Origin: a virus
Virus record (IMG/VR): IMGVR_UViG_3300017745_000012
Span: 1-48,454 of that record
Reading direction: 5' to 3' (one strand)
DNA: 48,454 nucleotides
Part shown: positions 19,292 to 36,300 of the stretch, piece after piece
Position numbering within the stretch: position 1 is the stretch's first letter
Layout of the letters: every line of letters begins with the position of its first letter
Translations under genes and position numbers: made by a program
The notes under the pieces: generated by a model
What the model was told of the DNA's origin: nothing
The model's database searches: none
What the model saw: the letters and a program-made list of their open reading frames with translations, nothing else

Positions 19292-19349
19292 GTGGACAGT
19301 TAGGAAAGTGTAACAATCTCTTGCACAGGGGATTTTTATGCTCTATAAT
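19292..19349 (+). promoter_or_regulatory. 24-bp operator plus sigma70 promoter (regulon site 1)
   Basis: Operator 19292-19315 (GTGGACAGT-N6-AGTGTAACA), then TTGCAC (19321-19326), 17-bp spacer, perfect TATAAT (19344-19349). The operator edge is 28 bp from the -10. One of thirteen such sites. Confidence 0.65.
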
Positions 19350-19407
19350 AAGAGTGGGAAAACAACCAGATTAACTTCTAGGTTTGTTTTCTCGCACCCT
19401 ATTACAC

Positions 19408-19436
19408 TTGACAATGAAGAAAAAGTATCCTAGAAT
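19408..19436 (+). promoter_or_regulatory. Possible second promoter overlapping a start codon
   Basis: TTGACA (19408-19413), 17-bp spacer, TAGAAT (19431-19436). The ATG at 19414 directly follows the -35 box. If used, it would only serve an internal start of the small gene there; it may be chance. Confidence 0.35.
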
Positions 19437-19590
19437 GTCTGTTACTATCACACCAGATCATGTAACTATGGAAAACAAGTTCTCACTTACAGAGATTAAG
19501 TATCTCATGAATCTAATGATGGGTGACTATCATTCAAAGCACTCTAGACTATATGCTAAACTAGAGAGAATGCTAGACGCATACGAGTAG
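19414..19590 (+). CDS. Hypothetical small protein
   Basis: 58 residues from ATG 19414 (MKKKYPRMSVT). An ATG at 19435 is an equally possible start; the frame also opens upstream at a TTG (19384), which is less likely. Helical C-terminus 'YLMNLMMGDYHSKHSRLYAKLERMLDAYE' rich in Met/Leu. Driven by the operator/promoter at 19292-19349. The stop TAG abuts the next operator. No known family. Confidence 0.6.
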   Translation: MKKKYPRMSVTITPDHVTMENKFSLTEIKYLMNLMMGDYHSKHSRLYAKLERMLDAYE

Positions 19591-19645
19591 ACAGTTATAT
19601 TAGTGGCACAAGAGAGGTAGAAACGTTGTTTATATCGACTATAAT
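19587..19645 (+). promoter_or_regulatory. 24-bp operator plus promoter (regulon site 2)
   Basis: Operator 19587-19610 (GTAGACAGT-N6-AGTGGCACA) overlaps the preceding stop codon. TATAAT at 19640-19645 is 29 bp downstream. At the expected -35 position there is only GTAGAA, so the promoter would need an activator. Confidence 0.65.
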
Positions 19646-19672
19646 AAGTACATACACAAAAGAGCACCACTC

Positions 19673-20131
19673 ATGACAAACACAGCACTATTCAAGAAAG
19701 CAGCAGTAGAGATCGAAGAGTACGCACAGACATTATGTGAGACTCTAGAGGAGAACTTCAAGCAAGACTCTATAGATTCATACAGAGCAATGATGATGAG
19801 AGATGGATACAGCATCTATGCAGCAAAGAGACTAGAGGACATCGAGGAAGGCACTGCTAACCTTTACAAGTATGTGATACACAAAGGACGTAAGTATCTA
19901 AAGATCGTACAGCAGCAGTTTGATGACATGGGTCCTAATCCATCAATGAAGTACAGAGATGGTTCAGTACATGCATTCATAGACAGAGAGACAGGAGATG
20001 TATACAAACCCGCAGGATGGGCAAAACCTGCGAAGCACGTAAGATATAATCTACTAGAGAGAAAGGATAGAGAGTTTCTATTCGATTACAAAAACGTTGG
20101 TTGGGCAGGAGGTTATCTCTACATGAGATAA
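19673..20131 (+). CDS. Conserved phage hypothetical protein
   Basis: 152 residues: helical N-terminus ('AAVEIEEYAQTLCETLEENF'), then a compact basic/aromatic domain ('GRKYLKIVQQQFDDMG...SVHAFIDRETGDVYKPAGWAKPAKHVRYNLL', about 92-130). The 'SVHAFID..TGDVYKPAGWAKPAK' string is of a kind I have seen in other marine T4-like phages, always without a function. Preceded by regulon promoter 2 and a leader of about 20 bases lacking a Shine-Dalgarno. Confidence 0.75.
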   Translation: MTNTALFKKAAVEIEEYAQTLCETLEENFKQDSIDSYRAMMMRDGYSIYAAKRLEDIEEGTANLYKYVIHKGRKYLKIVQQQFDDMGPNPSMKYRDGSVHAFIDRETGDVYKPAGWAKPAKHVRYNLLERKDREFLFDYKNVGWAGGYLYMR

Positions 20132-20163
20132 TCCACCCACCATGTACTCTTATACATAACCAC

Positions 20164-20415
20164 ATGAATCTTCTATCTGACCACATTAAGGATTACATTC
20201 AACCATACCCTCGTCTTAGATACACTAAGGGAGAGTATGAGTTACGTGTATTACCACGTGAAGAACTAGACATGGACGAAGAGAAGAAATTTTGGAGAAT
20301 GTTCCGTAAGTTTCCTAACGAGTTCGCTGCAGCAGCAGTATCCATGTTACCTAAGGACGTAGAGTTTAAGCAATATGATCATTTGAACAACACACTATTC
20401 CTCACTAAAAAGTAA
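20164..20415 (+). CDS. Hypothetical small protein
   Basis: 83 residues from ATG 20164 (MNLLSDHIKDY). The frame extends upstream to a TTG at 20101, but that would overlap the preceding gene and add an unlikely segment, so the ATG is chosen. 'EKKFWRMFRKFPNEFAAAAVSMLPKDVEF' suggests an amphipathic helix. No family recognised. Likely cotranscribed with the gene before it. Confidence 0.65.
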   Translation: MNLLSDHIKDYIQPYPRLRYTKGEYELRVLPREELDMDEEKKFWRMFRKFPNEFAAAAVSMLPKDVEFKQYDHLNNTLFLTKK

Positions 20416-20419
20416 AATC

Positions 20420-20659
20420 ATGCCAACAGAAGAATTCAACAACGAACGTGCACGCATCTCTAAACAACGTGATGATATCATGGATATTATGACGGAGAAG
20501 TTTAAAGAGCACACCGCAAACAACGACATGAATAGTGCTATGGCACTTGCAGATGAGTATTTTGAGTGGTTACACCCAGATATTGCGACGCACGAAGATA
20601 CACTTTACTCAGATGAAACAGAACTCAGAAGAACATACCTCGAACTCACAACTCGATGA
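20420..20659 (+). CDS. Hypothetical small acidic protein
   Basis: 79 residues, acidic and mostly helical ('ERARISKQRDDIMDIMTEKFKEHTANNDMNSAMALADEYFEWL'). Starts 4 bases after the previous stop and ends just before the next small gene. No known motif. Confidence 0.65.
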   Translation: MPTEEFNNERARISKQRDDIMDIMTEKFKEHTANNDMNSAMALADEYFEWLHPDIATHEDTLYSDETELRRTYLELTTR

Positions 20660-20663
20660 TAGT

Positions 20664-20777
20664 ATGAAAGATCTAGTCTTAGCGTATATTAAAGCAAAGA
20701 ATGCGGATGATGACGCTAAGGCAGAGGTCATACTCGATGAAATCAATGAACTCAGACGTTTAACCAATGACAAATGA
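20664..20777 (+). CDS. Very small hypothetical protein
   Basis: 37 residues from ATG 20664 (MKDLVLAYIKAKNADDDAKAEVILDEINELRRLTNDK), a single likely amphipathic helix. The upstream extension of this frame lies inside the previous gene and is not used here. Its last 11 bases are shared with the starts of two other genes, so all three frames are used at 20767-20777. Confidence 0.55.
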   Translation: MKDLVLAYIKAKNADDDAKAEVILDEINELRRLTNDK

Positions 20778-20994
20778 AGAAGAGTACAACAGCGAACGCA
20801 CTGAAGGAGAATCTCAAGGGGTTAACATCTACGACGAGATCAAAAAAGAAATCCAACGTGTCATCGACTCGGAAAACCCAAACGACAAAGGGCAAGACAA
20901 CCTCCCAGAACCGTACCAAACGTACGAGCAAAGGAACGACCTCCTCCCAGAAGACTTCTACAACTCGCAAAGCGAAGGTAAAGACTTCAACTAA
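20767..20994 (+). CDS. Small acidic protein, overprinted pair member A
   Basis: 75 residues, strongly acidic and hydrophilic ('MTNEEEYNSERTEGE', 'IYDEIKKEIQRVIDSE', 'LLPEDFYNSQSEGKDF'). Every base is shared with the next gene in the +1 frame. Codons end mostly in C or A like those of neighbouring small genes (gac, aac, tac, atc), which favours this frame being coding. ATG overlaps the end of the preceding gene. Function unknown; it could be the only real protein here, with the other starting later. Confidence 0.58.
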   Translation: MTNEEEYNSERTEGESQGVNIYDEIKKEIQRVIDSENPNDKGQDNLPEPYQTYEQRNDLLPEDFYNSQSEGKDFN

Positions 20995-21241
20995 GATAAC
21001 AATCACACAATCACGTAAGAAGGACATGTTCCCACATATGGGTATAGCACATAAGTTTCCTTATTACTTTGAACCAATGCCAGAGATACAAGATAAACTC
21101 AACAAAGCATGGTTCGATCAGTATTTCGGCGAAGAACGTATGATTGATCACATAAGGAAACATAAACTGAAGTCACATCAGTACAAAGCATATGTCAACT
21201 ATTGGTGGTTAAAAGAAACCAAAGCAAGAACTGTCACATAG
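20774..21241 (+). CDS. Lysine/threonine-rich N-terminus plus compact C-terminal domain, overprinted pair member B
   Basis: 155 residues. Residues 1-84 are almost only Lys, Arg, Ser and Thr ('TTRSKKKSNVSSTRKTQTTKGK', split pattern continuing to about 84), like histone-H1 tails, and lie over gene A in another frame. Residues 85-155 ('MFPHMGIAHKFPYYFEPMPEIQDKLNKAWFDQYF...YKAYVNYWWLKETKA') look like a normal folded small protein. A shorter version starting at ATG 21026 would avoid the overlap; the purine stretch before that ATG is too close to serve as a good Shine-Dalgarno. The long form would be a DNA- or RNA-binding candidate. The operator for the next gene lies within its 3' end. Confidence 0.6.
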   Translation: MKKSTTANALKENLKGLTSTTRSKKKSNVSSTRKTQTTKGKTTSQNRTKRTSKGTTSSQKTSTTRKAKVKTSTKITITQSRKKDMFPHMGIAHKFPYYFEPMPEIQDKLNKAWFDQYFGEERMIDHIRKHKLKSHQYKAYVNYWWLKETKARTVT

Positions 21242-21273
21242 ACCTGTACACATGCACACATATGGACTATAAT
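21215..21273 (+). promoter_or_regulatory. Operator half-site plus promoter, inside a gene end (regulon site 3)
   Basis: Window 21215-21238 has an intact proximal half (ACTGTCACA) and a degenerate distal half; it lies in the coding sequence of the preceding gene. TGTACA (21245-21250), 17-bp spacer, TATAAT (21268-21273); edge-to--10 distance 29 bp. The 20 bases from the -10 onward match regulon site 2 almost exactly (TATAATAAGTACATACACA). Confidence 0.6.
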
Positions 21274-21298
21274 AAGTACATACACAACAAATCACATC

Positions 21299-21550
21299 AT
21301 GACAGCATTAGAACTCGCATCACAAGTAGATCAACTCTTCTCTTTCTATGATTATGTTCACTCATTCTATGGTAAGGATGGTATCTACCCTGAGAACGAA
21401 AGAACAATACCACAGATAGCAGACGCTACCGCTGAGTACTTTGAAAGATGCTTCGACCCTAATGACACATGGACATGGGGTGATGGTGACTCACTCGACA
21501 GAGAAAGAGTCAGAGACATTATGAATTTTAACCTAGGTAAAGCACTATGA
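21299..21550 (+). CDS. Hypothetical small acidic protein
   Basis: 83 residues (MTALELASQVDQLFSFYDYVHSFYG...), with 'DATAEYFERCFDPNDTWTWGDGDSLDRERVRDIM' near the end; acidic, aromatic, soluble. First gene behind regulon promoter 3. Stop overlaps the next ATG (ATGA). No family recognised. Confidence 0.72.
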   Translation: MTALELASQVDQLFSFYDYVHSFYGKDGIYPENERTIPQIADATAEYFERCFDPNDTWTWGDGDSLDRERVRDIMNFNLGKAL

Positions 21551-21705
21551 ACCAAGCAGGAATCCCATTCTACGACTTCCCACACTCACCTATACTATGG
21601 ATAGGATTAGGTGGTATACTATTCACATTGGTATTATACTTTGTAACTAACAGAGCGTATACCATATCACCATTCAATGAAGACAATGAACTTCGACAAA
21701 AATGA
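21547..21705 (+). CDS. Small single-span membrane protein
   Basis: 52 residues with one clear transmembrane segment at about 16-33 ('ILWIGLGGILFTLVLYFV') followed by 'TNRAYTISPFNEDNELRQK'. Coupled to the previous gene by ATGA. Phage inner-membrane peptides of this size often act in lysis control, superinfection exclusion or host-membrane modulation; nothing here decides which. Confidence 0.68.
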   Translation: MNQAGIPFYDFPHSPILWIGLGGILFTLVLYFVTNRAYTISPFNEDNELRQK

Positions 21706-21859
21706 TCCTGATAATGAAGTGTTCAAGATTACATGGTGGGAAGGCGATAACCTGTCTCCCCATCATAAGTCAGGAGAACAAATAGTATACAGCATAAAAG
21801 AAGGTGCTGAACTAATCGAATACTTATCATCAAACAACTGGAGTTACACAGTACAATGA
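21677..21859 (+). CDS. Hypothetical small protein
   Basis: 60 residues from ATG 21677 (MKTMNFDKNDPDNEV); ATG 21686 is an alternative. 'VFKITWWEGDNLSPHHKSGEQIVYSIKEGAELIEYLSSNNWSYTV' reads like a compact alpha/beta unit with conserved-looking Trp. Overlaps the membrane-protein gene by 29 bases and the following gene by ATGA. Confidence 0.65.
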   Translation: MKTMNFDKNDPDNEVFKITWWEGDNLSPHHKSGEQIVYSIKEGAELIEYLSSNNWSYTVQ

Positions 21860-22008
21860 AACCTTACATACTATACATTATCATAGGACTATTCTTTATG
21901 ACACTGATAAGGACAACACTAACAATTGATAGGAGCGAAAGAAACCAAAGACTATATGATGAACTATGTCAAGTAGATGAATCATATTGTATAGAGGAGA
22001 AGTCATGA
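21856..22008 (+). CDS. Small single-span membrane protein
   Basis: 50 residues with a hydrophobic N-terminal span (about 4-19, 'YILYIIIGLFFMTLI') and a charged tail ('DRSERNQRLYDELCQVDESYCIEEKS') holding two Cys. Coupled on both sides by 4-base overlaps (ATGA), so it is part of the operon behind regulon promoter 3. The second tiny membrane protein in this operon. Function unknown. Confidence 0.62.
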   Translation: MKPYILYIIIGLFFMTLIRTTLTIDRSERNQRLYDELCQVDESYCIEEKS

Positions 22009-22151
22009 CTAATTGGAATGATCGTGAATCAATTCGTAATCACGTAAGACATGAGAACAAGATTAGATTCAAGAAGTGGGAGATGGAGAAACCAATGCCT
22101 ATCAAAAATAGAAAGTATCCAAAGAAGATAGATGATAACACCAACACTTAA
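22005..22151 (+). CDS. Small basic hypothetical protein
   Basis: 48 residues, very basic (MTNWNDRESIRNHVRHENKIRFKKWEMEKP...NRKYPKKIDDNTNT), probably nucleic-acid or membrane-surface associated. Coupled to the gene before by ATGA; overlaps the next gene by 20 bases. Confidence 0.58.
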   Translation: MTNWNDRESIRNHVRHENKIRFKKWEMEKPMPIKNRKYPKKIDDNTNT

Positions 22152-22335
22152 AACATTCACAAGTACATCAAATAGATCATATGACAGACACAAATATGAG
22201 TTAGTATTCAGTGATGGAAGGTCAGTTGTGATTGATGATTATTCTGCTATGAAACAAGCATGGATGCAGCATACCAGTGTGTGTTCTCATGTAAATATAC
22301 TGGATAAGAAGAAGAGTAGAGGTGGAGGATTTTAG
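22132..22335 (+). CDS. Conserved small hypothetical protein
   Basis: 67 residues; 'RSYDRHKYELVFSDGRSVVIDDYSAMKQAWMQHTSVCSHVNILDKKKSRGGGF' resembles a type of small cyanophage protein with a two-strand beta hairpin followed by a helix and 'SHV.ILD'. Overlaps the preceding gene by 20 bases. Last gene of the operon; a 320-bp non-coding stretch follows. Confidence 0.65.
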   Translation: MITPTLKTFTSTSNRSYDRHKYELVFSDGRSVVIDDYSAMKQAWMQHTSVCSHVNILDKKKSRGGGF

Positions 22336-22468
22336 AGTACTTTTGCGTACGTGAGAGCGTCAGTGGTAGACAGGGATTCTTGGAGGTAGTATAGGGTAGT
22401 ATCCTTGAGATTAAGAAAGGTTAATTAAATATAGGTAAGGTGCTCTCTTGTTGTTGTCTTAGGCTGGT

Positions 22469-22591
22469 ATGTATGAGAAGTCAAGTGCGGATATCTTTAT
22501 GTCCCGAAACCCTCAAAAAGACTCAAAAACACTCAGAGGTGTGCTACAATTAATACAGAAAGTCAGAAAAGTCACTTTTTTGGTTTTTTAA
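22469..22591 (+). CDS. Doubtful 40-codon ORF
   Basis: ATG 22469 opens 40 codons (MYEKSSADIFMSRNPQKDSKTLRGVLQLIQKVRKVTFLVF). It runs through the phased repeats and the first terminator-like element, so it may be accidental. No Shine-Dalgarno. Kept only because it is the sole sizeable frame in this gap. Confidence 0.2.
   Translation: MYEKSSADIFMSRNPQKDSKTLRGVLQLIQKVRKVTFLVF
22513..22550 (+). promoter_or_regulatory. Possible promoter with 10-bp phased repeats
   Basis: TACAAT at 22545-22550 with no good -35 box; instead TCAAAAAGAC, TCAAAAACAC and TCAGAGGTGT sit head to tail (22513-22542), one per helical turn. Could be an activator site for the gene at 22659. No regulon palindrome here. Confidence 0.4.
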
Positions 22592-22650
22592 GTTTTTCAG
22601 AAAGTTAAAAAAGTCATTTTTTTAATATTCTGAGTTTTTTAAGAATTTTT
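22556..22650 (+). terminator. Tandem A/T-rich terminator-like elements (42-bp period)
   Basis: Two copies of CAGAAAGT + (C/T)A(G/A)AAAAGTCA + (C/T)TTTTTT match at 23 of 26 positions (starts 22556 and 22598). The first holds the hyphenated palindrome AAAAGT-C-ACTTTT followed by T-runs. Could terminate upstream transcripts or attenuate transcription into the gene at 22659. Confidence 0.45.
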
Positions 22651-22658
22651 AATTTTAA

Positions 22659-22895
22659 ATGTTTGTGAAAACCTTCGAGAACCTCGGTAGTTCAGCATTA
22701 TATGTCATAAAAATAGGAGAAAACTCTGTATTTGCAACATATAATACAAATATCGACAAAGAATACGAATTTATGTGTGAAAACCCACAAAATTTCGAGA
22801 ATAAACTGTCAAAGTCCCTAGAGAAGGGAGAATCAGTAGGTAAACTATTCCATGCCAGTATAAAGGATGGTGAACTAGTACCCGCTGACAAATAA
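22659..22895 (+). CDS. KTSC-like small protein
   Basis: 78 residues: 'SSALYVIKIGENSVFATYNTNIDKEYEF....PQNFENKLSKSLEKGESVGKLFHASIKDGEL'. The order 'S..L..I.......V.Y.......Y.F.....P..F...L..A.S.GK.F...IK' is that of the KTSC domain (PF13619), a small domain also found alone in phages and tied by annotation to lysyl-tRNA synthetase C-termini. It begins right after an extremely AT-rich leader with no Shine-Dalgarno. The opposite strand is also open here but has no better features. Family call is moderate. Confidence 0.68.
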   Translation: MFVKTFENLGSSALYVIKIGENSVFATYNTNIDKEYEFMCENPQNFENKLSKSLEKGESVGKLFHASIKDGELVPADK

Positions 22896-23030
22896 ATGAG
22901 TAAAAAGTATAATATAGACCAAGGAGACGCTAATTCAGACGACCTTGAGACATATGGATATCAAATTAAAAGTATAAACAGATCTAATAAGAAAAAGGTA
23001 ACACGAATAAAGAAAGAAAAGGACAGATAG
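22896..23030 (+). CDS. Small basic hypothetical protein
   Basis: 44 residues starting directly after the previous stop (TAAATG): MSKKYNIDQGDANSDDLETYGYQIKSINRSN..., ending in a Lys/Arg tail 'NKKKVTRIKKEKDR'. An acidic middle followed by a basic end; no family. The stop TAG abuts the next operator. Confidence 0.58.
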   Translation: MSKKYNIDQGDANSDDLETYGYQIKSINRSNKKKVTRIKKEKDR

Positions 23031-23090
23031 TGTGCCGATATTATTAGTGGCACACAAGTGGTTGAATTATGCATATATTATTGCAATAAT
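23031..23090 (+). promoter_or_regulatory. 24-bp operator plus promoter (regulon site 4)
   Basis: Operator 23031-23054 (TGTGCCGAT-N6-AGTGGCACA), symmetric at both ends. TTGAAT (23062-23067), 17-bp spacer, AATAAT (23085-23090); edge-to--10 distance 30 bp. A GTG at 23032 inside the operator could nominally start the following frame but is unlikely. Confidence 0.66.
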
Positions 23091-23118
23091 AGAGTATACA
23101 CAAATTCAGAAACCATTT

Positions 23119-23304
23119 ATGTCATTCTTCAAGCACGTAGCACTTCACAAATACGACTTAACAGATAAAGGAGTATCTCAAGCATGCTACGACGAAATGA
23201 AAGCAGAGGGTTATGACCTCGTAATTTCAGAAAAGGAAATGCAAGTTCTTGCCAAGCACAGATGCGAGGAATTCAAGAACTATATGAGACCTCTCTTCGC
23301 TTAG
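23119..23304 (+). CDS. Hypothetical small protein
   Basis: 61 residues from ATG 23119 (MSFFKHVALHKYDLTDKGVSQACYDEMKAEGYDLVISEKEMQVLAKHRCEEF...). The frame extends back to a GTG at 23032, but that lies in the operator and would precede the promoter, so the internal ATG is chosen. Its stop TAG is part of a terminator stem. Unknown function. Confidence 0.62.
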   Translation: MSFFKHVALHKYDLTDKGVSQACYDEMKAEGYDLVISEKEMQVLAKHRCEEFKNYMRPLFA

Positions 23305-23314
23305 GGGTCTTTTT
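23287..23314 (+). terminator. Rho-independent terminator overlapping a stop codon
   Basis: AGACCTCT (23287-23294) pairs with AGGGGTCT (23303-23310; one G-U) over an 8-base loop, followed by a T-run to 23314. The preceding gene's stop TAG (23302-23304) is at the loop/stem border. The next ATG follows after two bases, so readthrough or reinitiation would be needed to express it. Confidence 0.68.
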
Positions 23315-23316
23315 CA

Positions 23317-23541
23317 ATGCCAGAAAATACATGGATCTACGACACTGTATGGGAAGAGTACAGAGAAGAGCACGGTCATACTATAGACGAGATGAACGAA
23401 TTCATCTGGCAAGGTAACCGAACCGTGATCCAAGATCTCGAACAGAGAGCAAACAAGATGATGTGGCAATTCGATCAGCGGAGTGCATGGATGTGTGGCG
23501 ATGAACCACAATACAGAGTACCCGAAGATTGCCCATTCTAA
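23317..23541 (+). CDS. Hypothetical small acidic protein
   Basis: 74 residues, Trp/Glu-rich (MPENTWIYDTVWEEYREEHGHTIDEMNEFIWQGNRTVIQDLEQRANKMMWQF...). Probably two helices. Begins 2 bases after a strong terminator-like hairpin with no promoter visible between, so expression depends on readthrough. No family recognised. Confidence 0.65.
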   Translation: MPENTWIYDTVWEEYREEHGHTIDEMNEFIWQGNRTVIQDLEQRANKMMWQFDQRSAWMCGDEPQYRVPEDCPF

Positions 23542-23598
23542 GACAGTTGACAAAGTGGCACACTCACCCGTTGACACACTGCCACCAACTGCTATAAT
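23539..23598 (+). promoter_or_regulatory. 24-bp operator plus promoter (regulon site 5)
   Basis: Operator 23539-23562 (TAAGACAGT-N6-AGTGGCACA) begins at the preceding stop codon. TTGACA (23571-23576), 16-bp spacer, TATAAT (23593-23598); edge-to--10 distance 30 bp. The leader contains AATCAGA three bases before the ATG. Confidence 0.7.
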
Positions 23599-23623
23599 AA
23601 GTACATAACAATCAATCAGACAA

Positions 23624-23797
23624 ATGCCTTTACACATCGCAACCGACCTCATCTCATTTCTACAAGACATGAGTTCAGACAACGACAACCTTGTACCTGA
23701 CCTAGACCTAGCAACAGACTACTTAGAGTCACAAGGTGTAGAACTCACAGATGCAGTCATCAGACATGCTGCTCGCCTTATCGACATCAACTTCTAA
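23624..23797 (+). CDS. Hypothetical small acidic protein
   Basis: 57 residues (MPLHIATDLISFLQDMSSDNDNLVPDLDLATDYLESQGVELTDAVIRHAARLIDINF). All-helical look with regular hydrophobic spacing. First gene after regulon promoter 5. No family recognised. Confidence 0.68.
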   Translation: MPLHIATDLISFLQDMSSDNDNLVPDLDLATDYLESQGVELTDAVIRHAARLIDINF

Positions 23798-23840
23798 TCT
23801 ATTGTACACTCTCTTATTCACCCTATTCTTTTTAATCACC

Positions 23841-24155
23841 ATGCGTAAAGTTGAAATGCAAATGAACACAGCGATCAGAAACAGAGTTAACTGGGCGGGA
23901 TCCAATACAACTGTTATGATCAACGAGAATAACAACAAAGCAAGAGTATTCTTACACGGTAACTTAATTGCTGAAGTATGCAATGAGTTTGTAGCAATCT
24001 TCGACGGTGGTTGGCAGTCCAACACTACGAAGAGCAGACTTAACGCATTACTTACAGAGTTCAGACCACAGGCGGGAGTATTTCAAAAAGACTGGACATG
24101 GTTCATTAGACATGGAAACTCAGTTTTCCCATTCAAATCAGGGTCGCTAGTTTAA
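23841..24155 (+). CDS. Conserved phage hypothetical protein ('GGWQSNTTKSRLN' family)
   Basis: 104 residues from ATG 23841 (MRKVEMQMNTAIRN). The frame runs back to an ATG at 23751 with a hydrophobic stretch, but that overlaps the previous gene and is probably not translated. The string 'VFLHGNLIAEV...VAIFDGGWQSNTTKSRLNALLTEF....VFQKDWTWFI....VFPFKSG' is one I know from many cyanophages and other marine phages, always of unknown function. A weak promoter (TTGTAC-N16-TATTCT, 23802-23829) may precede it. The stop lies in a hairpin (GGGTCGCT / AGCGATCC, 24141-24162). Confidence 0.78.
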   Translation: MRKVEMQMNTAIRNRVNWAGSNTTVMINENNNKARVFLHGNLIAEVCNEFVAIFDGGWQSNTTKSRLNALLTEFRPQAGVFQKDWTWFIRHGNSVFPFKSGSLV

Positions 24156-24223
24156 GCGATCCTCTGGGCGTACATCTCGCAGTTTTCTGATTTATGCCAA
24201 TTGTTGTAAGTCCCAGAAACGAC

Positions 24224-24273
24224 AAAAAGTTAAAAACCTAGGTTTTCTGATTTTCTAGGTTTTTGACTTTTTT
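24224..24273. terminator. Strong bidirectional terminator
   Basis: AAAAAGTTAAAAACCTAG (24224-24241) pairs with CTAGGTTTTTGACTTTTT (24255-24272), 18 bp with one wobble, 13-base loop, T-run to 24273. The A-run on the other side would make it work for minus-strand transcripts as well, which arrive from the operon at 24486-25022. Confidence 0.75.
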
Positions 24274-24291
24274 AGTTTTTTATATTATAAT
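24263..24291 (+). promoter_or_regulatory. Promoter overlapping the terminator arm
   Basis: TTGACT (24263-24268) lies in the right arm of the terminator; 17-bp spacer; perfect TATAAT (24286-24291). It would drive the gene at 24319. No regulon palindrome upstream, since the terminator stem occupies that place. Confidence 0.55.
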
Positions 24292-24318
24292 TAGTTCTTA
24301 CAAGCGGGGGTTATTCTA

Positions 24319-24489
24319 ATGTCTATGAGTATTGCGGATATGTATCAGGAGATGATAGATCAGTATACTGAACTGTATATGTATCAAAAGGCACAAAGAA
24401 GGGATGGCATCCGCAGGGACACCACAAAAGATATCCTCGACGACATGTCAGCCGTCGAGGTAGATGTAGAATATACTAGTGAGACCTAG
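24319..24489 (+). CDS. Small Met/Tyr-rich hypothetical protein
   Basis: 56 residues: MSMSIADMYQEMIDQYTELYMYQKAQRRDGIRRDTTKDILDDMSAVEVDVEYTSET, probably helical. Behind the promoter within the terminator arm. Its stop TAG and the TAG of the convergent minus-strand gene share the tetramer CTAG (24486-24489), so the two genes meet tail to tail. Confidence 0.62.
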   Translation: MSMSIADMYQEMIDQYTELYMYQKAQRRDGIRRDTTKDILDDMSAVEVDVEYTSET

Positions 24490-24695
24490 TGATCACAGTT
24501 GTGGTCTCGATAGCAATCCTCGTTCCAATGTTCGTTATCATCTAGTACACCTAGGCGAGTCATGATCATATCATATATTTCCATGCCACTGCGGGACATT
24601 CTACCCGCTGTGTAATCCCAACCTAAATCTGCTAGGTCGTTACATAGATCAGTTTTGTTCTTGTAACGAGGAAATTTGGTGTCTGTTTTAGGCAT
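24486..24695 (-). CDS. Hypothetical small protein (minus operon, third gene)
   Basis: 69 residues, MPKTDTKFPRYKNKTDLCNDLADLGWDYTAGRMSRSGMEIYDMIMTRLGVLDDNEHWNEDCYRDHNCDH. The 'GRMSRSGMEIYDMIMTRLG' helix resembles a helix-turn-helix in outline, but evidence is thin. Overlaps the gene before it by 8 bases. Its end converges on the plus-strand gene. Confidence 0.66.
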   Translation of the reverse strand: MPKTDTKFPRYKNKTDLCNDLADLGWDYTAGRMSRSGMEIYDMIMTRLGVLDDNEHWNEDCYRDHNCDH

Positions 24696-24861
24696 TGAGT
24701 TGATTCTCCCAGATTTGAGTTTTAAAACGTTTAACTGCTTTGTCTAACAGTTTGATGTCGCCATCGCAAATATTTGCTTGCTCTTCATTATCATATTCTA
24801 AATGACAGAAGGCGTTATTGATGTCGCCTATGAGAGTGAGCAATGCATTGTAATTATTCAT
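24688..24861 (-). CDS. Hypothetical small protein (minus operon, second gene)
   Basis: 57 residues (MNNYNALLTLIGDINNAFCHLEYDNEEQANICDGDIKLLDKAVKRFKTQIWENQLNA), helical and acidic. Its ATG shares one base with the stop of the preceding gene (CATTA on the plus strand), supporting an operon. No family. Confidence 0.62.
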   Translation of the reverse strand: MNNYNALLTLIGDINNAFCHLEYDNEEQANICDGDIKLLDKAVKRFKTQIWENQLNA

Positions 24862-25022
24862 TACGCTACCTCGTACTCAGGGTACACAACTGGATTAGTT
24901 TCTTCAACTGCTACGACATAACCTGTCTCGTTGAAATAGTCATCTGCAATCTGACATGCTTCAGAAAAATCATTAACGATCTTAACTGGCGATGTGTAGA
25001 CGACATACTGATTAATTCTCAT
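24861..25022 (-). CDS. Hypothetical small protein (minus operon, first gene)
   Basis: 53 residues (MRINQYVVYTSPVKIVNDFSEACQIADDYFNETGYVVAVEETNPVVYPEYEVA): a beta-alpha-beta pattern, with 'A..IADDY....GYVVAVEE' like small phage proteins of alpha/beta type. Preceded by a good minus-strand promoter and an AATCAGA leader two bases before the ATG. Confidence 0.65.
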   Translation of the reverse strand: MRINQYVVYTSPVKIVNDFSEACQIADDYFNETGYVVAVEETNPVVYPEYEVA

Positions 25023-25047
25023 AATCTGATTTGTATATTACTCTTAC

Positions 25048-25107
25048 ATTATAATCAGACATATATTAAATGCAACCACTCAGTGTGACAGTAATATTAC
25101 TGGCACA
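25048..25107 (-). promoter_or_regulatory. Minus-strand promoter sharing the central operator (regulon site 6, leftward)
   Basis: Read leftward: operator 25107-25084, TTGCAT (25075-25070), 16-bp spacer, TATAAT (25053-25048). Edge-to--10 distance 30 bp. Drives the three-gene minus operon. Confidence 0.72.
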
Positions 25108-25142
25108 TCATGTATTGTATTCCTGCTCTTAACATATAGAAT
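25084..25142 (+). promoter_or_regulatory. Most symmetric operator plus rightward promoter (regulon site 6)
   Basis: Operator 25084-25107 reads TGTGACAGT-AATATT-ACTGGCACA, a palindrome broken at one base pair. Rightward promoter: TTGTAT (25115-25120), 16-bp spacer, TAGAAT (25137-25142); edge-to--10 distance 29 bp. It stands midway between divergent transcription units. Confidence 0.75.
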
Positions 25143-25162
25143 ACGTATAGTTACGCAAATCT

Positions 25163-25381
25163 ATGCATTACTACAACGTTATTAGTTTTTTAAACGATGA
25201 TGAACTGCACCAAGTGTGGGACATTTGTGCTGAAGCACTAGAACGCAAAGGATGGGACTGCGACAACTCAGAGTTGTCTATCCGTGCCTTTGATCAGAAT
25301 CTAAAATCAAACATTGATTCAGACACGGTATGCGACCCAGAACCATGTGGCACATCTCACCCTTATTATTATGAATATTAA
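25163..25381 (+). CDS. Hypothetical small acidic protein
   Basis: 72 residues: MHYYNVISFLNDDELHQVWDICAEALERKGWDCDNSELSIRAFDQNLKSN..., ending CDPEPCGTSHPYYYEY. Four Cys in a short acidic protein suggest metal binding or disulfides. Divergent from the minus operon, under the shared operator. No family. Confidence 0.68.
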   Translation: MHYYNVISFLNDDELHQVWDICAEALERKGWDCDNSELSIRAFDQNLKSNIDSDTVCDPEPCGTSHPYYYEY

Positions 25382-25400
25382 GACACGGATCGCCACAGAG

Positions 25401-25460
25401 TGTGACAATCTTTTTTGTGGCATACTCAAGGTTGCAGGATACGCACCCACCCTCTACAAT
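25401..25460 (+). promoter_or_regulatory. 24-bp operator plus promoter (regulon site 7)
   Basis: Operator 25401-25424 (TGTGACAAT-N6-TGTGGCATA). TTGCAG (25432-25437), 17-bp spacer, TACAAT (25455-25460); edge-to--10 distance 30 bp. AATCAGA in the leader, five bases before the ATG. Confidence 0.68.
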
Positions 25461-25487
25461 ACAACTAGTCAAACAAATCAGAACACT

Positions 25488-25742
25488 ATGACAACAGCAA
25501 CTTATCAAGCGAACCTAACCGACACAGAGTATAACGGTTGGACTAACTACGAGACTTGGAATGTCGGTCTTTGGTTAGGCGGTGACGAAGGTTTATATGA
25601 TATCGCTAGACGTGCCTTGGATTATGATCACCTAGTTGAGATGCTCACATGCATAGGATCCGAGACAACTGGCGACGGTGTGCGATGGGATGACCCAAAG
25701 GTGAACACATGCGAAATAGATGAGATGCTGGAGGATATCTAA
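25488..25742 (+). CDS. 'NYETWNV' family protein (DUF7249-like)
   Basis: 84 residues from ATG 25488 (MTTATYQANLTD); the frame is open further upstream but that part precedes the promoter. 'YNGWTNYETWNVGLWLGGDEGLYDIARRAL' is the hallmark of a small family common in phages, plasmids and cyanobacteria (I recall it as DUF7249), often near anti-restriction-like genes. Function is not established. Leader carries AATCAGA and no Shine-Dalgarno. Confidence 0.74.
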   Translation: MTTATYQANLTDTEYNGWTNYETWNVGLWLGGDEGLYDIARRALDYDHLVEMLTCIGSETTGDGVRWDDPKVNTCEIDEMLEDI

Positions 25743-25880
25743 ATGAGCAGCAACAACTTCCCGCACCACGAAAACTATAGCACAGTTGGATCACCCGCTG
25801 TGCTATGGGTACTCAGCCGCATTGTGCCACTTATCAAACTGTCCATTACATGTAGCAGGAGTATATTCCATGCTCTATAA
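25743..25880 (+). CDS. Doubtful 45-codon ORF
   Basis: ATG 25743 directly follows the previous stop (TAAATG) and opens 45 codons (MSSNNFPHHENYSTVGSPAVL...). It runs through an inverted repeat (ATAGCACAG 25777-25785 / CTGTGCTAT 25798-25806), the next operator and the -10 box, so the later part is under other constraint. Possibly a short real peptide, more likely accidental. Confidence 0.25.
   Translation: MSSNNFPHHENYSTVGSPAVLWVLSRIVPLIKLSITCSRSIFHAL
25777..25806 (+). repeat. 9-bp inverted repeat upstream of operator
   Basis: ATAGCACAG and CTGTGCTAT form a perfect 9-bp stem with a 12-base loop. No T-run follows; it ends 16 bases before the operator at 25823. May stop upstream transcripts weakly. 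Confidence 0.5.
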
Positions 25881-25881
25881 T
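25823..25881 (+). promoter_or_regulatory. 24-bp operator plus promoter (regulon site 8)
   Basis: Operator 25823-25846 (TGTGCCACT-N6-ACTGTCCAT). Weak -35 TAGCAG (25853-25858), 17-bp spacer, TATAAT (25876-25881); edge-to--10 distance 29 bp. Confidence 0.68.
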
Positions 25882-25906
25882 TTAATCATAGCATACAACA
25901 CACTTC

Positions 25907-26212
25907 ATGAAAAGACTCGAACTAATCATGGGAAGAAACATTCCCAACGCAGGAAAGGTTTCAGACAACATGATAAACGACTTTATTAAGTCAGAGATCA
26001 TTCCTCATTTTGAGTATGGCACATTTATTGATGGCGAGGGGTTATGGAAAGGAGAATTTGAAAACACTAAGATTTTTTATATCGAGGTGCCTGATCATGA
26101 AGCAATCGCTACATCAGTTTTATTAAAGCACATTGCCGACAGATACCGCAAGGCATTTAGGCAAGAGAGTGTGCTAGTTTCAGAGGTGTCTACTCAAACA
26201 ACATTTGTTTGA
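25907..26212 (+). CDS. DUF3574-like protein
   Basis: 101 residues; ATG 25907, alternative 25928. 'VSDNMINDFIKSEIIPHFEYGTFIDGEGLWKGE' (18-50) and 'LLKHIADRYRKAFRQESVL' (72-90) line up with the DUF3574 pattern 'F..F....V.PRF..G.T..D..G.W' and 'I...Y...F.QESVL'. That family is of unknown function and often secreted in bacteria; here no signal peptide is present. The last 45 bases also hold the next operator and a 10-bp inverted repeat containing the stop codon. Confidence 0.72.
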   Translation: MKRLELIMGRNIPNAGKVSDNMINDFIKSEIIPHFEYGTFIDGEGLWKGEFENTKIFYIEVPDHEAIATSVLLKHIADRYRKAFRQESVLVSEVSTQTTFV

Positions 26213-26228
26213 GTACATGCCTTATAAT
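26170..26228 (+). promoter_or_regulatory. Operator plus promoter inside a gene end (regulon site 9)
   Basis: Operator 26170-26193 (TGTGCTAGT-N6-GGTGTCTAC) lies in the DUF3574-like coding sequence. TATAAT (26223-26228) is 29 bp downstream; the -35 position reads AACATT. Between them is the inverted repeat ACTCAAACAA (26192-26201) / TTGTTTGAGT (26205-26214). Confidence 0.58.
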
Positions 26229-26252
26229 GTAATTAATTAAACAAATCAGACT

Positions 26253-26729
26253 ATGCCAAATCATTGCTACAACAGAGTGAGTGTCTATTCAGATAATGAG
26301 CAGGACATACAAACACTCTTCGACATATTCGAGAATGGAACTAACCCGAAGAATGATCTAACAGTATTTGGTCAGATCATTCCCGAACCAAATTGGAAAG
26401 AGATCCCAGTCGGGGGTAAACTGCCTGTAATGGATAAACGTGAATTTGGAATGGGTTTAGCGTTTGAATCTACAGACGAAGAAGGACGTCCGCAAATGAC
26501 ACAAGATGCCAGATGGTATGACTGGCGAATTCAAAACTGGGGTACTAAATGGGACTGCTACGACTTAACCATTGACGAAAGCGAATTGCCTAATGGTTTT
26601 GAAGCATCATTTAATACTGCATGGTCACCGCCAGAAGACATTTATAATGCACTCAAAGAAAAATTTGAAGGCATGAGCATAAGTTGGTTCTATGACGAAC
26701 CAGGTATGGAGATCGCTGGTTATCTGTAG
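26253..26729 (+). CDS. Api92-like ferredoxin-fold domain protein
   Basis: 158 residues beginning MPNHCYNRVSVYSDNEQDIQTLFDIF, with 'YDWRIQNWGTKWDCYD' (about 89-104) and 'FNTAWSPPEDIYNALKEKF....ISWFYDEPGMEIAGYL'. This is the signature of the Api92-like / DUF1281 group (PF18406), found in phages and plasmids, with a ferredoxin-like fold and unknown function. Leader AATCAGA two bases before the ATG; no Shine-Dalgarno. Confidence 0.82.
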   Translation: MPNHCYNRVSVYSDNEQDIQTLFDIFENGTNPKNDLTVFGQIIPEPNWKEIPVGGKLPVMDKREFGMGLAFESTDEEGRPQMTQDARWYDWRIQNWGTKWDCYDLTIDESELPNGFEASFNTAWSPPEDIYNALKEKFEGMSISWFYDEPGMEIAGYL

Positions 26730-26784
26730 ACAATTTACAAACTGTCCACTACCTATTGCACAGTCAAACGTAGTGGACTATAAT
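26726..26784 (+). promoter_or_regulatory. 24-bp operator plus promoter (regulon site 10)
   Basis: Operator 26726-26749 (GTAGACAAT-N6-ACTGTCCAC) overlaps the preceding stop codon. TTGCAC (26756-26761), 17-bp spacer, TATAAT (26779-26784); edge-to--10 distance 29 bp. Confidence 0.7.
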
Positions 26785-26807
26785 AAGAATATAAATCAAA
26801 CAACATT

Positions 26808-26960
26808 ATGTCAACTCTACATCACGAATCAATCTTTGAAACAATCCTTGACGAAGTATGCGAGGAATTCGGTATCGAATACGATCCAATGGGCGACCCA
26901 GACGTTAACAACGTTATCGACGAAATGGTCATGGAAAAATTCTTAAGCATGGGAGGGTAA
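26808..26960 (+). CDS. Small acidic hypothetical protein
   Basis: 50 residues: MSTLHHESIFETILDEVCEEFGIEYDPMGDPDVNNVIDEMVMEKFLSMGG; strongly acidic, likely helical. Monocistronic behind regulon promoter 10. Short acidic phage proteins of this type are often host-takeover or anti-host factors, but nothing here shows that directly. Confidence 0.66.
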   Translation: MSTLHHESIFETILDEVCEEFGIEYDPMGDPDVNNVIDEMVMEKFLSMGG

Positions 26961-26990
26961 TATATGGGCAGTAGGCAGGGGTTGCGTTAA

Positions 26991-27080
26991 CTAATCGCAT
27001 TTAAATCGAACCTCTACGTAAGACCCAATATCTTCACCTGACCCGTGAACAGTGCACAGACCTGTAACTCTGATAGGCAT
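26991..27080 (-). CDS. Doubtful minus-strand 29-codon ORF
   Basis: Reads MPIRVTGLCTVHGSGEDIGSYVEVRFKCD, which looks more like protein than random sequence (beta pattern, two Cys), but it has no clear Shine-Dalgarno and no promoter behind it. It is the only candidate gene in the 180-bp gap 26961-27141, which also holds hairpins TTCAC-CTGACCC-GTGAA (27033-27049) and GGAGG...CCTCC (about 27092-27111). Confidence 0.3.
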   Translation of the reverse strand: MPIRVTGLCTVHGSGEDIGSYVEVRFKCD

Positions 27081-27132
27081 GGAATTTGCTAGGAGGGTCG
27101 GTCAATCCTCCGCCAACCACACAACACGGCAG

Positions 27133-27200
27133 CTGGCACCTTGTGCCAGTTGTCAAACTGTCCACTAGATTGTTGACATAAGCATCTAGTGGATTATACT
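27133..27200 (+). promoter_or_regulatory. Operator with extra half-site plus promoter (regulon site 11)
   Basis: Operator 27142-27165 (TGTGCCAGT-N6-ACTGTCCAC). Its left half also pairs with CTGGCAC at 27133-27139 to form a second perfect palindrome (27133-27149). TTGACA (27173-27178), 16-bp spacer, TATACT (27195-27200); edge-to--10 distance 29 bp. Confidence 0.7.
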
Positions 27201-27223
27201 TAAGTTAATCAGACAAAAGTATT

Positions 27224-27391
27224 ATGTTCGACAATCAACTAAGACCTTACTTCGACGGGCGAGTATTAGCAAACTCTTCAGCGATGCAAGACCCCGCAGT
27301 TAAGGCAGCACTTGCAGCAATGGCAGCAAGAAACTTTGAACCACTTCCAACACCTAACGAGGGAGTTTGGAATATATCCGATAGGCACTAA
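27224..27391 (+). CDS. Small Ala-rich hypothetical protein
   Basis: 55 residues: MFDNQLRPYFDGRVLANSSAMQDPAVKAALAAMAARNFEPLPTPNEGVWNISDRH. One Ala-rich helix and a Pro-rich tail. Monocistronic behind regulon promoter 11. The stop TAA lies in the loop of GGCAC-TAAT-GTGCC (27384-27397), which is also the edge of the next operator. Confidence 0.64.
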   Translation: MFDNQLRPYFDGRVLANSSAMQDPAVKAALAAMAARNFEPLPTPNEGVWNISDRH

Positions 27392-27451
27392 TGTGCCAGT
27401 TGGCAAACTGTCCACTGGGGTTGTTGACAACCAATCCCTAGGGACTATAAT
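27384..27451 (+). promoter_or_regulatory. Operator with extra half-site plus promoter (regulon site 12)
   Basis: Operator 27392-27415 (TGTGCCAGT-N6-ACTGTCCAC), nearly identical to site 11, with an extra half GGCAC at 27384-27388. TTGACA (27424-27429), 16-bp spacer, TATAAT (27446-27451); edge-to--10 distance 30 bp. Confidence 0.72.
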
Positions 27452-27479
27452 AAAAACATAAATCAGAAACAAACACATC

Positions 27480-28088
27480 ATGGGCAAAGGCAGAATCGAA
27501 CTCAACACAGCAGGCGGTCTCTACATTATGTTCGCTACTGAGGAGCATTACGAGAGAGCAACTGGAAACGGTAAAATCAAGATCGGTCTATCATACTCTT
27601 GTGAGTGGGGAACAATCCAGAGATACAAAGAGCATAGCACCTCATGTGCAGACAAGATTCATAACATTGCTCTATGGGCATGTGATGAGGGAACAGACAT
27701 TCCAACACCCGAAGGAACTAAAGGCGGTGTATTTGAAATGGAACAGTATCTCCACTCAGTGTGCAAGTCTTACGGATGGGAGCAGATCGGATCAGGCAAA
27801 GAGTGGTTCGCTGTACCTATGTCAGTCATCCAGATGATTAACGACATCACAGCAGGAGAGAGTTTTGATTACACAGCATGTCCAGAGATCGCACGCAGCA
27901 TGTACTATGCACCTAAATTTGAAGACATGCCAAGCATGGACGAGACACGCAGAAGGACATGGTGTAAGAAGAGCAGAGACAGAAAGATCAGCACATGCGA
28001 CAGATCACCAATGCAGATGTCAAAGGACACAGCAGCAGAGAGAACATATGCCAGAGACTACATGTTAAACAGGGGCGAGGTTAAATAA
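27480..28088 (+). CDS. GIY-YIG / T5orf172-like nuclease-fold protein
   Basis: 202 residues. Motif order fits the T5orf172/MUG113 branch of the GIY-YIG fold: G13-L14-Y15 ('AGGLYIMF'), K34-I35-G36 ('IKIGLSYS'), R48 ('TIQRYKEH'), Glu 86/88 ('VFEMEQYLHSVCK'), and E108-W109-F110 ('GKEWFAVP'). The C-terminal 70 residues are basic ('TRRRTWCKKSRDRKISTC'), suited to DNA contact. Such proteins may be endonucleases, including homing-like or host-DNA degrading ones; an inactive regulator is also possible. It is monocistronic under regulon promoter 12 and followed by another regulon promoter. Confidence 0.75.
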   Translation: MGKGRIELNTAGGLYIMFATEEHYERATGNGKIKIGLSYSCEWGTIQRYKEHSTSCADKIHNIALWACDEGTDIPTPEGTKGGVFEMEQYLHSVCKSYGWEQIGSGKEWFAVPMSVIQMINDITAGESFDYTACPEIARSMYYAPKFEDMPSMDETRRRTWCKKSRDRKISTCDRSPMQMSKDTAAERTYARDYMLNRGEVK

Positions 28089-28144
28089 CCCCTGTTTACA
28101 TTCCGTGACATATGGTTGACTTCCCTAGGGATATCCTTTATAAT
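28089..28144 (+). promoter_or_regulatory. Weak operator plus promoter (regulon site 13)
   Basis: Only the proximal half (CGTGACATA, 28104-28112) is recognisable. TTGACT (28116-28121), 17-bp spacer, TATAAT (28139-28144). Edge-to--10 distance 26 bp, outside the 28-30 of the others, so this copy is uncertain; the promoter itself is good. Confidence 0.55.
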
Positions 28145-33330: not shown

Positions 33331-36300
33331 ATGGTTGCTGTAAAAACAAAGAGAATATCTACTCTGATAGAGACACAGCTTCCTGAGTTCATTAGTACAG
33401 AATACGAACTTTTTAGTAAGTTTGTAACGAAGTATTATGAAGCACAGGAGGTACAGGGTGGTACTCTAGACATTATTAATAATATTCAAAAATATGCAGA
33501 CATTGATTACTATGAAAAGAACTTACTTAGACAACACGATACTTTGGATGTTAGTATCACTAATAGTAGCGACACAATTGTACTACAAGATGCAAGGAGT
33601 TTTCCAGAAAAAGACGGATATATTAGAATAGATGATGAGATAATATTTTACGCAACTAGAACTGATACAACCTTAAGTGGATGTTCTAGAGGTGTTAGTG
33701 GTAATACAAAAATTGGTGATCTATACAGTAAAAGTAATTTTGTAAGTACAACTGCTACAGCACATGCTGCTGGTCAAACAGTTTACAATATTAGTAATCT
33801 TTTTCTTTATGCATTAGTAAAGAATTTTGAGAAACAATATCTAGGTTCATTCCCTGAGAAATATCTTAGAGGTAGTGTTGATAAAAGAACCTTAATAAAG
33901 AACATACAGAATTTCTATAAAGCGAAAGGAACTGATAGTTCTATTAAGTTTGTTTTCAATAGTATTATTGATAAGGACTTTGATCCTCTTGATCGTACTA
34001 ACTTAGCACAGTTTGAGTGGTTTATAAAATCTGAGTTTGATAATATTGCCATAGATGTTACAAGTCCAAATGGTCAATTTTTAGTTGGTGATAGAATCAA
34101 AACCACTACTGCTAGTGGAGAGATTGCTAAGATTGTTAGAAATGATCAGAACGTAATTACAAGAGTATATTTAAGACAAGTATCCAGCACCTTCTCTCTT
34201 GGAGATAGTGTTACTGGCACTACAGGATCAACATTTACTGCTAGTACAGTATATACATTCCCTAATGGTATTTTCTACATCAACTTTGGTAAATTGCCAC
34301 AGTTATTTGGAGATTTTGAATATGGCAAATATTATTTTGCACCAGAAGGAATAAGGATCTTCCAAAACTGGCAAATTATATGGAATCAATCTGACCCTTC
34401 TAACTTACCGATGCCTATCCATCCAGATGGTCATCCTATGAAGTTTAGTACCACTAGAGAAGGTACATTACTTGGTGGTCAACAATATTACAACAGCAAA
34501 CCTGTTCTTGGTGTCAAGACAAACTACGATAATGAATTCCAACCAGAATTCATGATGAATGTTGATGAGTCTAATAAGATTTACTATTATTGTGCTTATC
34601 ATCGTTACATGTCAGGTCTTGATGGTGATGAAGGTTACATGGAGTTGGTTGCTAATACAAGACCAAGAAAAATTGTAAAACCTGAGGTATACAAACCAAG
34701 AGATTTTACATATAAAGCATCTAATGCAGATTGGATAAACGTATATGCACTTAAGTGTAAAGTTATATCTGGTGATGTAAAAAGTTTAGTAGGAAAGAAA
34801 ATAGTTCAATCTGATACAGAAGAGTATGACTATGCAGATGCTGTTGTAGACAATGTATATGCAGATGGAACTAGAGATGATGAGGTAATCTATAATATAG
34901 TTTTAGCACCAGAGACAGTTAATGGTACATTTGGTGTCTCAACTAAGACTCAACTTGAGAAAGTGCTAATAGGCACTAAGTCTAAAGGAGATAGGATTGA
35001 TGTATTCTCTACTACTGGTTGGGATAATACAGGATCAGTATTGATTGGTGATGAGACAATTACATTTAGTGAAAAGACTGTAGGTCAATTTATTATTGAC
35101 AATAGATTAGCACAGACTGCTGTGCAGCACGATGTTGGTACACCAGTATACAAACCTGTTACAATAGCAGGATCTGGTGTCACATTGTTGACGATGGGTA
35201 TTGTTTATAATTTACAACCATCAGATCCACAACCATACTCTTTTGTAGGAGATAAGATACAAGTATCTAATCCTGGTTTTGAGACTTCTGATTCTAAGAT
35301 TGTAAACGTAGGAACAAATCAGACTAGATGGATATTAGGAACTGGTGCAGCAGTTAATGTTCCTACATTATCTGCAGTTGCTACATCATTAGATCAAGTA
35401 CCAACAAATGTATCTGCTATACTTGCAGATGATCAGTATTATTATATTGCTAGTTCTAGTTTCCCATCACATAAAATTTTAGATGGTTCTACTGTGACAC
35501 AAACAGTATTGGATCAGAAACTTCTTCGTATTATTAGAAAACAAGCAACTAGAACTACAGAAACATATCCTACACCTAAGAGAGATATTGGTATTGGATT
35601 AAATGGTGTTCCTTTTTATGGTTATAAAGATGCAGAAAGTATTAGATATGGTAAGTTAGAACAAATCAAGGTTGATCTTCGTGGAACTGGATATGTAAGA
35701 CCACCATTTGTATTGATTGATCAAGTACCTAATAAAGCAAGAGCAATATTAGCAGGACAAGTTGTAGAAAGCATAAGTGTGGATACTACTGATGTATTTC
35801 CTAGAACTCCAGACGTATTAATTACATCTGGTAGAAATGCTGCTGTTCGTGCTGTAGTAACTGGTGGTAAGGTCACAAGTCTTATACTTGATAATGCTGG
35901 TGAGTTTTATTCTTCTCCTCCACAAGTTGTAATTAGAGATAATGCTGGTAGAGGTAGGTTTGCTGAGTTTGAAGCAGTTGTTAATACTGATGGACAGATT
36001 ACTGGATTTAATAAGATTGCAGAGGGTAACTTCTATAATCAAAATACTGTAATAGTTGAAATAGTTCCAGTGGGCAGTGGTGCAACTGGTATACCTCTTC
36101 TTAAAGAATGGAATTTTAATAGATATAAAAAATTAGAAACTAAATTAGACACAGAGAATGGTTATGTATTTGGAAACAGCAATAACGTATTGGAGTATGG
36201 TTATGGTTATGCTGCAAACCCGAAAGCACTTCGTGTTTCTCTTAGTGATAACCTAAACAGTGCTGGAACAGAACCAGCATCTAAATCACACTCACCTATT

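Follow-up and report, generated by a model that had tools for sequence, protein, structure and literature searches.

A repeated 24-bp palindromic operator in the small-gene row of T4-like cyanophages, a probable target of the host regulator PlmA

The viral sequence IMGVR_UViG_3300017745_000012 of IMG/VR (48,454 nucleotides; this whole stretch of DNA is referred to below as the window) is a fragment of a T4-like cyanomyovirus, kin to the Eurybiavirus phages P-HM1 and P-HM2. It contains 12 copies of a 24-bp palindromic operator (10 strong and two weak, the latter at 21215 and 26170) together with 13 promoters, one pair of which is divergent. We consider it likely that these sites are operators of PlmA, a regulator of the cyanobacterial host, and that they activate what are probably early promoters of the phage. 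The observations on which this proposal is built are the motif itself and its spacing, its occurrence among T4-like cyanophages, a matching host element at the same position in yfr2 promoters, and the fact that no GntR protein was found in the phages.

A preliminary description of the window had listed thirteen sites of the form TGTGnCAGT-N6-ACTGnCACA. Each was scored with a leave-one-out matrix against the 47,807 non-site positions of the window. Nine of the thirteen beat all of these positions, only three to four non-site positions beat 25401 and 26170, and at 21215 there were 29 positions with an equal or higher score. The site at 28089, which had been presented as weak, had to be discarded (38,587 positions score equal or higher, and its distance to the -10 box is 26 bp, outside the range of 28-30). 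An independent matrix, derived from other phages (231 operators, none of which occurs in the window), gave as its ten top matches 25084, 27142, 27392, 25823, 19587, 23539, 23031, 25401, 26726 and 19292. The two weak sites scored 6.8 (26170) and 5.2 (21215), both with a distance of 29 bp, and the single fair match elsewhere (40639, score 15) was within the giant ORF (open reading frame) 33331-44361. Twelve of the sites are thus retained, the two weak ones being correctly spaced, and the proposed form fits strictly at 25084 only, the other sites being imperfect.

Full palindromes with up to three mismatches appeared five times in the window against 0.5 expected in shuffled sequence. Among 80 relatives, retrieved through one ORF, there were 498 matches with a score of at least 14 and 347 with a score of at least 18; one Markov-simulated sequence of equal length provided 12 and none, respectively. 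These comparisons exclude chance. The spacing is equally characteristic. The distances from the operator edge to the -10 box, re-measured here, were identical to those first given (28, 29, 29, 30, 30, 29, 30, 29, 29, 29, 29 and 30 bp), and the leftward -10 claimed at 30 bp from the 25084 site is indeed there, as TATAAT. Of about 240 cases counted, 208 had an exact TATAAT at 28-31 bp from the operator edge, and no other offset accounted for more than seven. In 390 de-duplicated units, picked for offsets 28-31, the ranking was 29 > 30 > 28 > 31. Operator positions 4, 6, 7, 18, 19 and 21 were conserved at 96-99% (G4, C6 and A7 are nearly invariant). The sites and promoters of the window are as follows (gap, distance in bp from operator edge to -10):

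19292..19315, operator GTGGACAGTTAGGAAAGTGTAACA; -10 TATAAT at 19344, gap 28
19587..19610, operator GTAGACAGTTATATTAGTGGCACA; -10 at 19640, gap 29; predicted to drive ORF 19673-20131
21215..21238, weak operator with the right half-site AACTGTCACA only (score 4.4-5.2, spacing correct); -10 at 21268, gap 29; ORF 21299-21550
23031..23054, operator TGTGCCGATATTATTAGTGGCACA; -10 AATAAT at 23085, gap 30
23539..23562, operator TAAGACAGTTGACAAAGTGGCACA; -10 at 23593, gap 30; ORF 23624-23797
25084..25107, best operator TGTGACAGTAATATTACTGGCACA, common to two divergent promoters; right -10 TAGAAT, gap 29; left -10 TATAAT, gap 30
25401..25424, operator TGTGACAATCTTTTTTGTGGCATA; -10 TACAAT at 25455, gap 30; ORF from 25488
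25823..25846, operator TGTGCCACTTATCAAACTGTCCAT; -10 at 25876, gap 29; ORF 25907-26212
26170..26193, weak operator TGTGCTAGTTTCAGAGGTGTCTAC; -10 at 26223, gap 29; ORF 26253-26729; stem-loop ACTCAAACAA/TTGTTTGAGT in the gap
26726..26749, operator GTAGACAATTTACAAACTGTCCAC; -10 at 26779, gap 29; ORF 26808-26960; inverted repeat CCACTAC/GTAGTGG around the -35 region
27142..27165, operator TGTGCCAGTTGTCAAACTGTCCAC; -10 TATACT at 27195, gap 29; ORF 27224-27391; inverted repeat CCACTAGAT/ATCTAGTGG around the -35 region
27392..27415, operator TGTGCCAGTTGGCAAACTGTCCAC; -35 TTGACA; -10 at 27446, gap 30; ORF 27480-28088
28114..28144, + strand, promoter without operator in the same gene series; TTGACT, then TATAAT at 28139

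The gene order of the window runs from tail-fibre genes through a row of small ORFs (approximately 18-31 kb) to the baseplate run gp25/gp6/gp7/gp8. It is the same in P-HM2, where the small-ORF row is found at 33-44 kb, ahead of gp25/gp6. The operators tile this row and several of them begin a few bases from the stop codon of the preceding gene; the predicted leaders measure 14-22 nt in 11 of the 12 units.

The operator was present in every Kyanoviridae/Eurybiavirus genome tested, these being ten T4-like cyanophages, marine and freshwater (P-HM1, P-HM2, MED4-213, S-PM2, Syn9, P-SSM2, P-SSM4, S-CAM4, S-SSM7 and S-CRM01), with 4-18 sites each against 0-1 for a reversed-pattern control. Searches of T4, the pelagiphage HTVC008M, S-TIM5, P-SSP7, Ma-LMM01, PSS2, Syn5 and Nostoc phage N1 found it in none of them. 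In P-HM2, P-SSM2 and Syn9 the sites form a cluster among the small ORFs close to the baseplate genes, a few others lying near replication genes; Syn9 has some six candidates, three of them among the small ORFs upstream of gp25/gp6. A conserved operator was also seen beside a late promoter, TATAAATA, in four other sequences (L090:13285, L099:12268, L105:10348 and L146:12995). As a lead to the regulator these four loci were rejected, the gene downstream being a porin-like late gene (MSIKSTIAAVAASPFLLAGAAFAGPYVNVE...).

The counterpart in the host is the promoter of yfr2, a small-RNA gene of the Cyano-1 family (RF01701). In 146 cyanobacterial genomes, near-exact operators (up to two mismatches) were several-fold above the reversed control, in larger genomes only, and when 12 of these loci were scanned with Rfam a Cyano-1 gene lay just downstream of the site in seven. 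The cyanobacteria-wide pattern search gave no close site in genomes smaller than about 3 Mb; the half-site emerged there once the search was anchored on the RNA. For the reverse test, 29 Cyano-1 loci were picked through the RNA alone, regardless of the operator, and compared with 500 column-permuted matrices. The best match to the phage matrix fell inside a 13-bp slot (-70 to -58) in 17 of the 29, where permuted matrices averaged 3.4 and never exceeded 12. The operator of the Cyano-1 loci starts at -63 to -68 from the conserved 5' motif of the RNA, hence some 29-30 bp from the -10, and three small genomes (1.7-1.9 Mb, presumed from their size to be marine picocyanobacteria; L340, L341 and L354) have a perfect half-site TGTGACAGTT in this slot. 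The preliminary description knew no such site among cyanobacterial NtcA/Pho boxes; given this match in sequence and position, the idea that the element is unknown in cyanobacteria is not supported. The phage piece itself carries no Yfr2 RNA, as no Rfam family was detected in the window. Two further arrangements were seen in cyanobacteria. Upstream of Cyano-1 in L341, L343 and L354 an extra inverted half-site adjoins the operator (AATTGGCACA-TGTGACAGTT), a layout different from that of the phages, and in the filamentous cyanobacterium Mojavia pulchra (L207:3107 and 5191) two perfect operators lie upstream of a tandemly duplicated gene (ca. 470 aa), without a Cyano-1 match. Exact matches also turned up in Acidobacteria, Ktedonobacter and Bryobacterales; these appear fortuitous and were dismissed.

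A protein that binds the host element has been reported. The GntR regulator PMM1637 of Prochlorococcus MED4 binds yfr2 promoters at the motif CGRE1 and is described as mediating the induction of Yfr2 in the host (PMC6778093). PMM1637 has been treated as PlmA, a GntR protein restricted to cyanobacteria that interacts with PII-PipX (PMC6243067, PMC7344720). In the three cyanobacterial genomes that we have examined, the Pfam GntR domain was single-copy, in a protein of 327-329 aa that adjoins an infC-like gene in two of them, and the helix-turn-helix stretch GLHRNTISKVY was identical in the three proteins.

The arms of the operator do not covary, the observed pairing being that expected from independent columns, so that each arm should be a protein half-site and not one side of an RNA stem. 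Together with the centre, re-measured near -53, this agrees with the single dimeric regulator originally suggested. Only 15% of the 390 units fit TTGACA at five or more of the six -35 positions and 63% fit at three or fewer, which favours an activator, as had been argued for the promoters with a poor -35 box. The gap between operator and -10 contains an element of its own. It reaches a folding energy of -8 kcal/mol or better in 34% of the 390 units and in 4% of shuffles, and in 42 units it resembles a terminator with a T-run. Examples are found in L025, L026, L034, L036, L037, L038 and L066, and in the window as the inverted repeats at 26170, 26726 and 27142. This stem-loop is separate from the operator, and the terminator of the preceding gene appears to be nested inside the next promoter.

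Along these lines, the following scheme can be proposed. PlmA would already be in the cell when infection starts, and its dimer would bind TGTG(A/C)CAGTT-N4-AACTG(T/G)CACA, a site centred at about -53 and lying immediately ahead of the -35 region. Bound PlmA might then recruit the sigma-70 RNA polymerase of the host to promoters whose -10 is good and whose -35 is usually poor, switching on a row of small cyanophage genes, probably as early genes. Each tiled unit would consist of stop codon, operator, short gap, -10, a leader of 14-22 nt and ATG, and the stem-loop in the gap of many relatives (sometimes a terminator) would end the preceding transcript. Binding of PlmA to the phage sites, and activation from them, are predictions from sequence, and CGRE1 may be exactly this operator.

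Several observations weigh against the PlmA proposal. The exact two-sided operator is nearly absent from bacteria (8 stretches in 257 Gb of genomes), 12 of the 29 Cyano-1 loci have no operator in the -70 to -58 slot, and the small host genomes are perfect in the left half only, their right half being degenerate, whereas the phage operators are two-sided. The identity of CGRE1 and the operator comes from the yfr2 promoter analysis made here, the early class of the genes from their type, their position and a published abstract. Finally, some promoters of the window have TTGACA-like -35 boxes, so that activation is not the sole reading.

These boxes (at 27392, 27142 and 23539) would suit a repressor, be it host PlmA or another protein, that holds or shuts off the early genes; many GntR-family proteins are repressors, and early phage genes are usually turned off later. 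Nevertheless, a site at fixed distance upstream of the -35 is better suited to contacting the polymerase than to blocking it, most -35 boxes are poor or replaced by hairpins, and PMM1637 is described as an inducer of Yfr2 (PMC6778093), which makes repression unlikely. An RNA explanation, in which the palindromes would form stem-loops or terminators as the cyanophage counterpart of the promoter-stem-loop cassettes of T4, and no protein operator would exist, seems to us very improbable. Several operators do begin within a few bases of the upstream stop codon, and true stem-loops adjoin them at the frequencies given above, but the stem-loop is the separate gap element, the arms of the 24-bp site do not covary, three of its positions are nearly invariant, no T-run follows the operator in the window and the distance to the -10 is fixed.

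Alternatively, the operators could be read by a dimeric regulator that the phage itself encodes and either makes early or carries in its virion; the resemblance to the host element would then be due to convergence or to an old borrowing. The rarity of the exact operator in bacterial genomes speaks for such a regulator, as do several small proteins of unknown function that are conserved in phages with the motif and not found in S-TIM5 or HTVC008M. Against it, neither a Pfam GntR domain nor an Ogr domain was found in 15 virus records (an E. coli control was positive for Ogr), ten cyanophage proteins scanned had no recognisable DNA-binding domain, and the host already has a protein for which binding to its matching element is reported (PMC6778093). 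When the ORFs of P-HM2 and S-CRM01 were profiled against motif-positive and motif-negative genomes and then searched with Pfam, only enzymes and domains of unknown function (DUFs) were obtained, and no DNA-binding family. We regard a phage regulator as improbable, and the inference of a phage-specific one is not supported.

Among known systems, CGRE1 of the yfr2 promoters is the closest, with the likeness measured here in sequence and in distance to the RNA start and the -10. The phage operators differ in being two-sided, near-consensus, repeated a dozen times and placed before protein genes, whereas in small host genomes the element of the yfr2 promoter is degenerate in its right half. CGRE1 was reportedly named and defined by Lambrecht in 2018. 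Doron and colleagues are said to have described in 2016 a novel conserved early-gene element in the T4-like cyanophages Syn9 and P-TIM40; the operator, as would be expected of such an element, is present across T4-like cyanophages and absent from T4. Sites of T4 MotA lie near -30, unlike the operator centre near -53, which sets these promoters apart from MotA middle promoters. The PeSL of T4, said to have been described by Arbiol in 2010, is a stem-loop joined to an early promoter among small hyperplastic genes. It lacks the 24-bp operator, which does not itself form a stem; here a stem-loop occupies about a third of the gaps. In phage P2 the activators Ogr and delta act from sites at about -55 on late promoters with a poor -35, and these are phage-encoded zinc-finger proteins; position and poor -35 are alike, whereas no Ogr domain was found here. 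The PhoB boxes of S-PM2d are likewise a cyanophage use of a host regulator site, with binding shown by gel shift, but regulator and motif are others and the genes are those of phosphate stress, not a gene row as here (PMC10976474). The contributions of the present analysis are the nested arrangement of the stem-loops and the comparison with the yfr2 promoters of the host.

T4-like cyanophages lack the genes alt, mod, motA and asiA with which T4 redirects the polymerase (PMC2984593), which raises the question of how they seize transcription. If their early promoters were operators of a universal cyanobacterial regulator, the answer could be tested with one purified protein, phage take-over would be tied to nitrogen and redox signalling through PII-PipX-PlmA, and the identical GLHRNTISKVY of the host proteins would explain a single operator in marine and freshwater phages. 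A broader version, put forward tentatively and with more doubt than confidence, is that the whole virus family drives its early gene rows from improved, two-sided PlmA operators, with the previous terminator nested between operator and -10. Early transcription would then be wired to the nitrogen, redox and light state of the host, because PlmA reportedly binds PII-PipX and is reduced by thioredoxin, and such wiring could help to explain the light dependence of cyanophage infection.

Some minor features of the gene row are also worth recording. The leaders at 19650, 21280, 23605, 25467, 26235, 27207, 27458 and 28155 have common ACATACACAACA-like or AAATCAGACAA-like stretches ahead of the ATG; the window leaders have no clear Shine-Dalgarno, and these stretches are possibly a translation signal. 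T-rich intergenic blocks (22500-22660 and 24210-24290), one of them with the inverted arms AAAACCTAGG/CTAGGTTTTT, flank part of the row and may be strong terminators. For the 158-aa protein of ORF 26253-26729, IMG/VR contains 215 relatives, and Puniceispirillum phage HMO-2011 has a 31% match to it.

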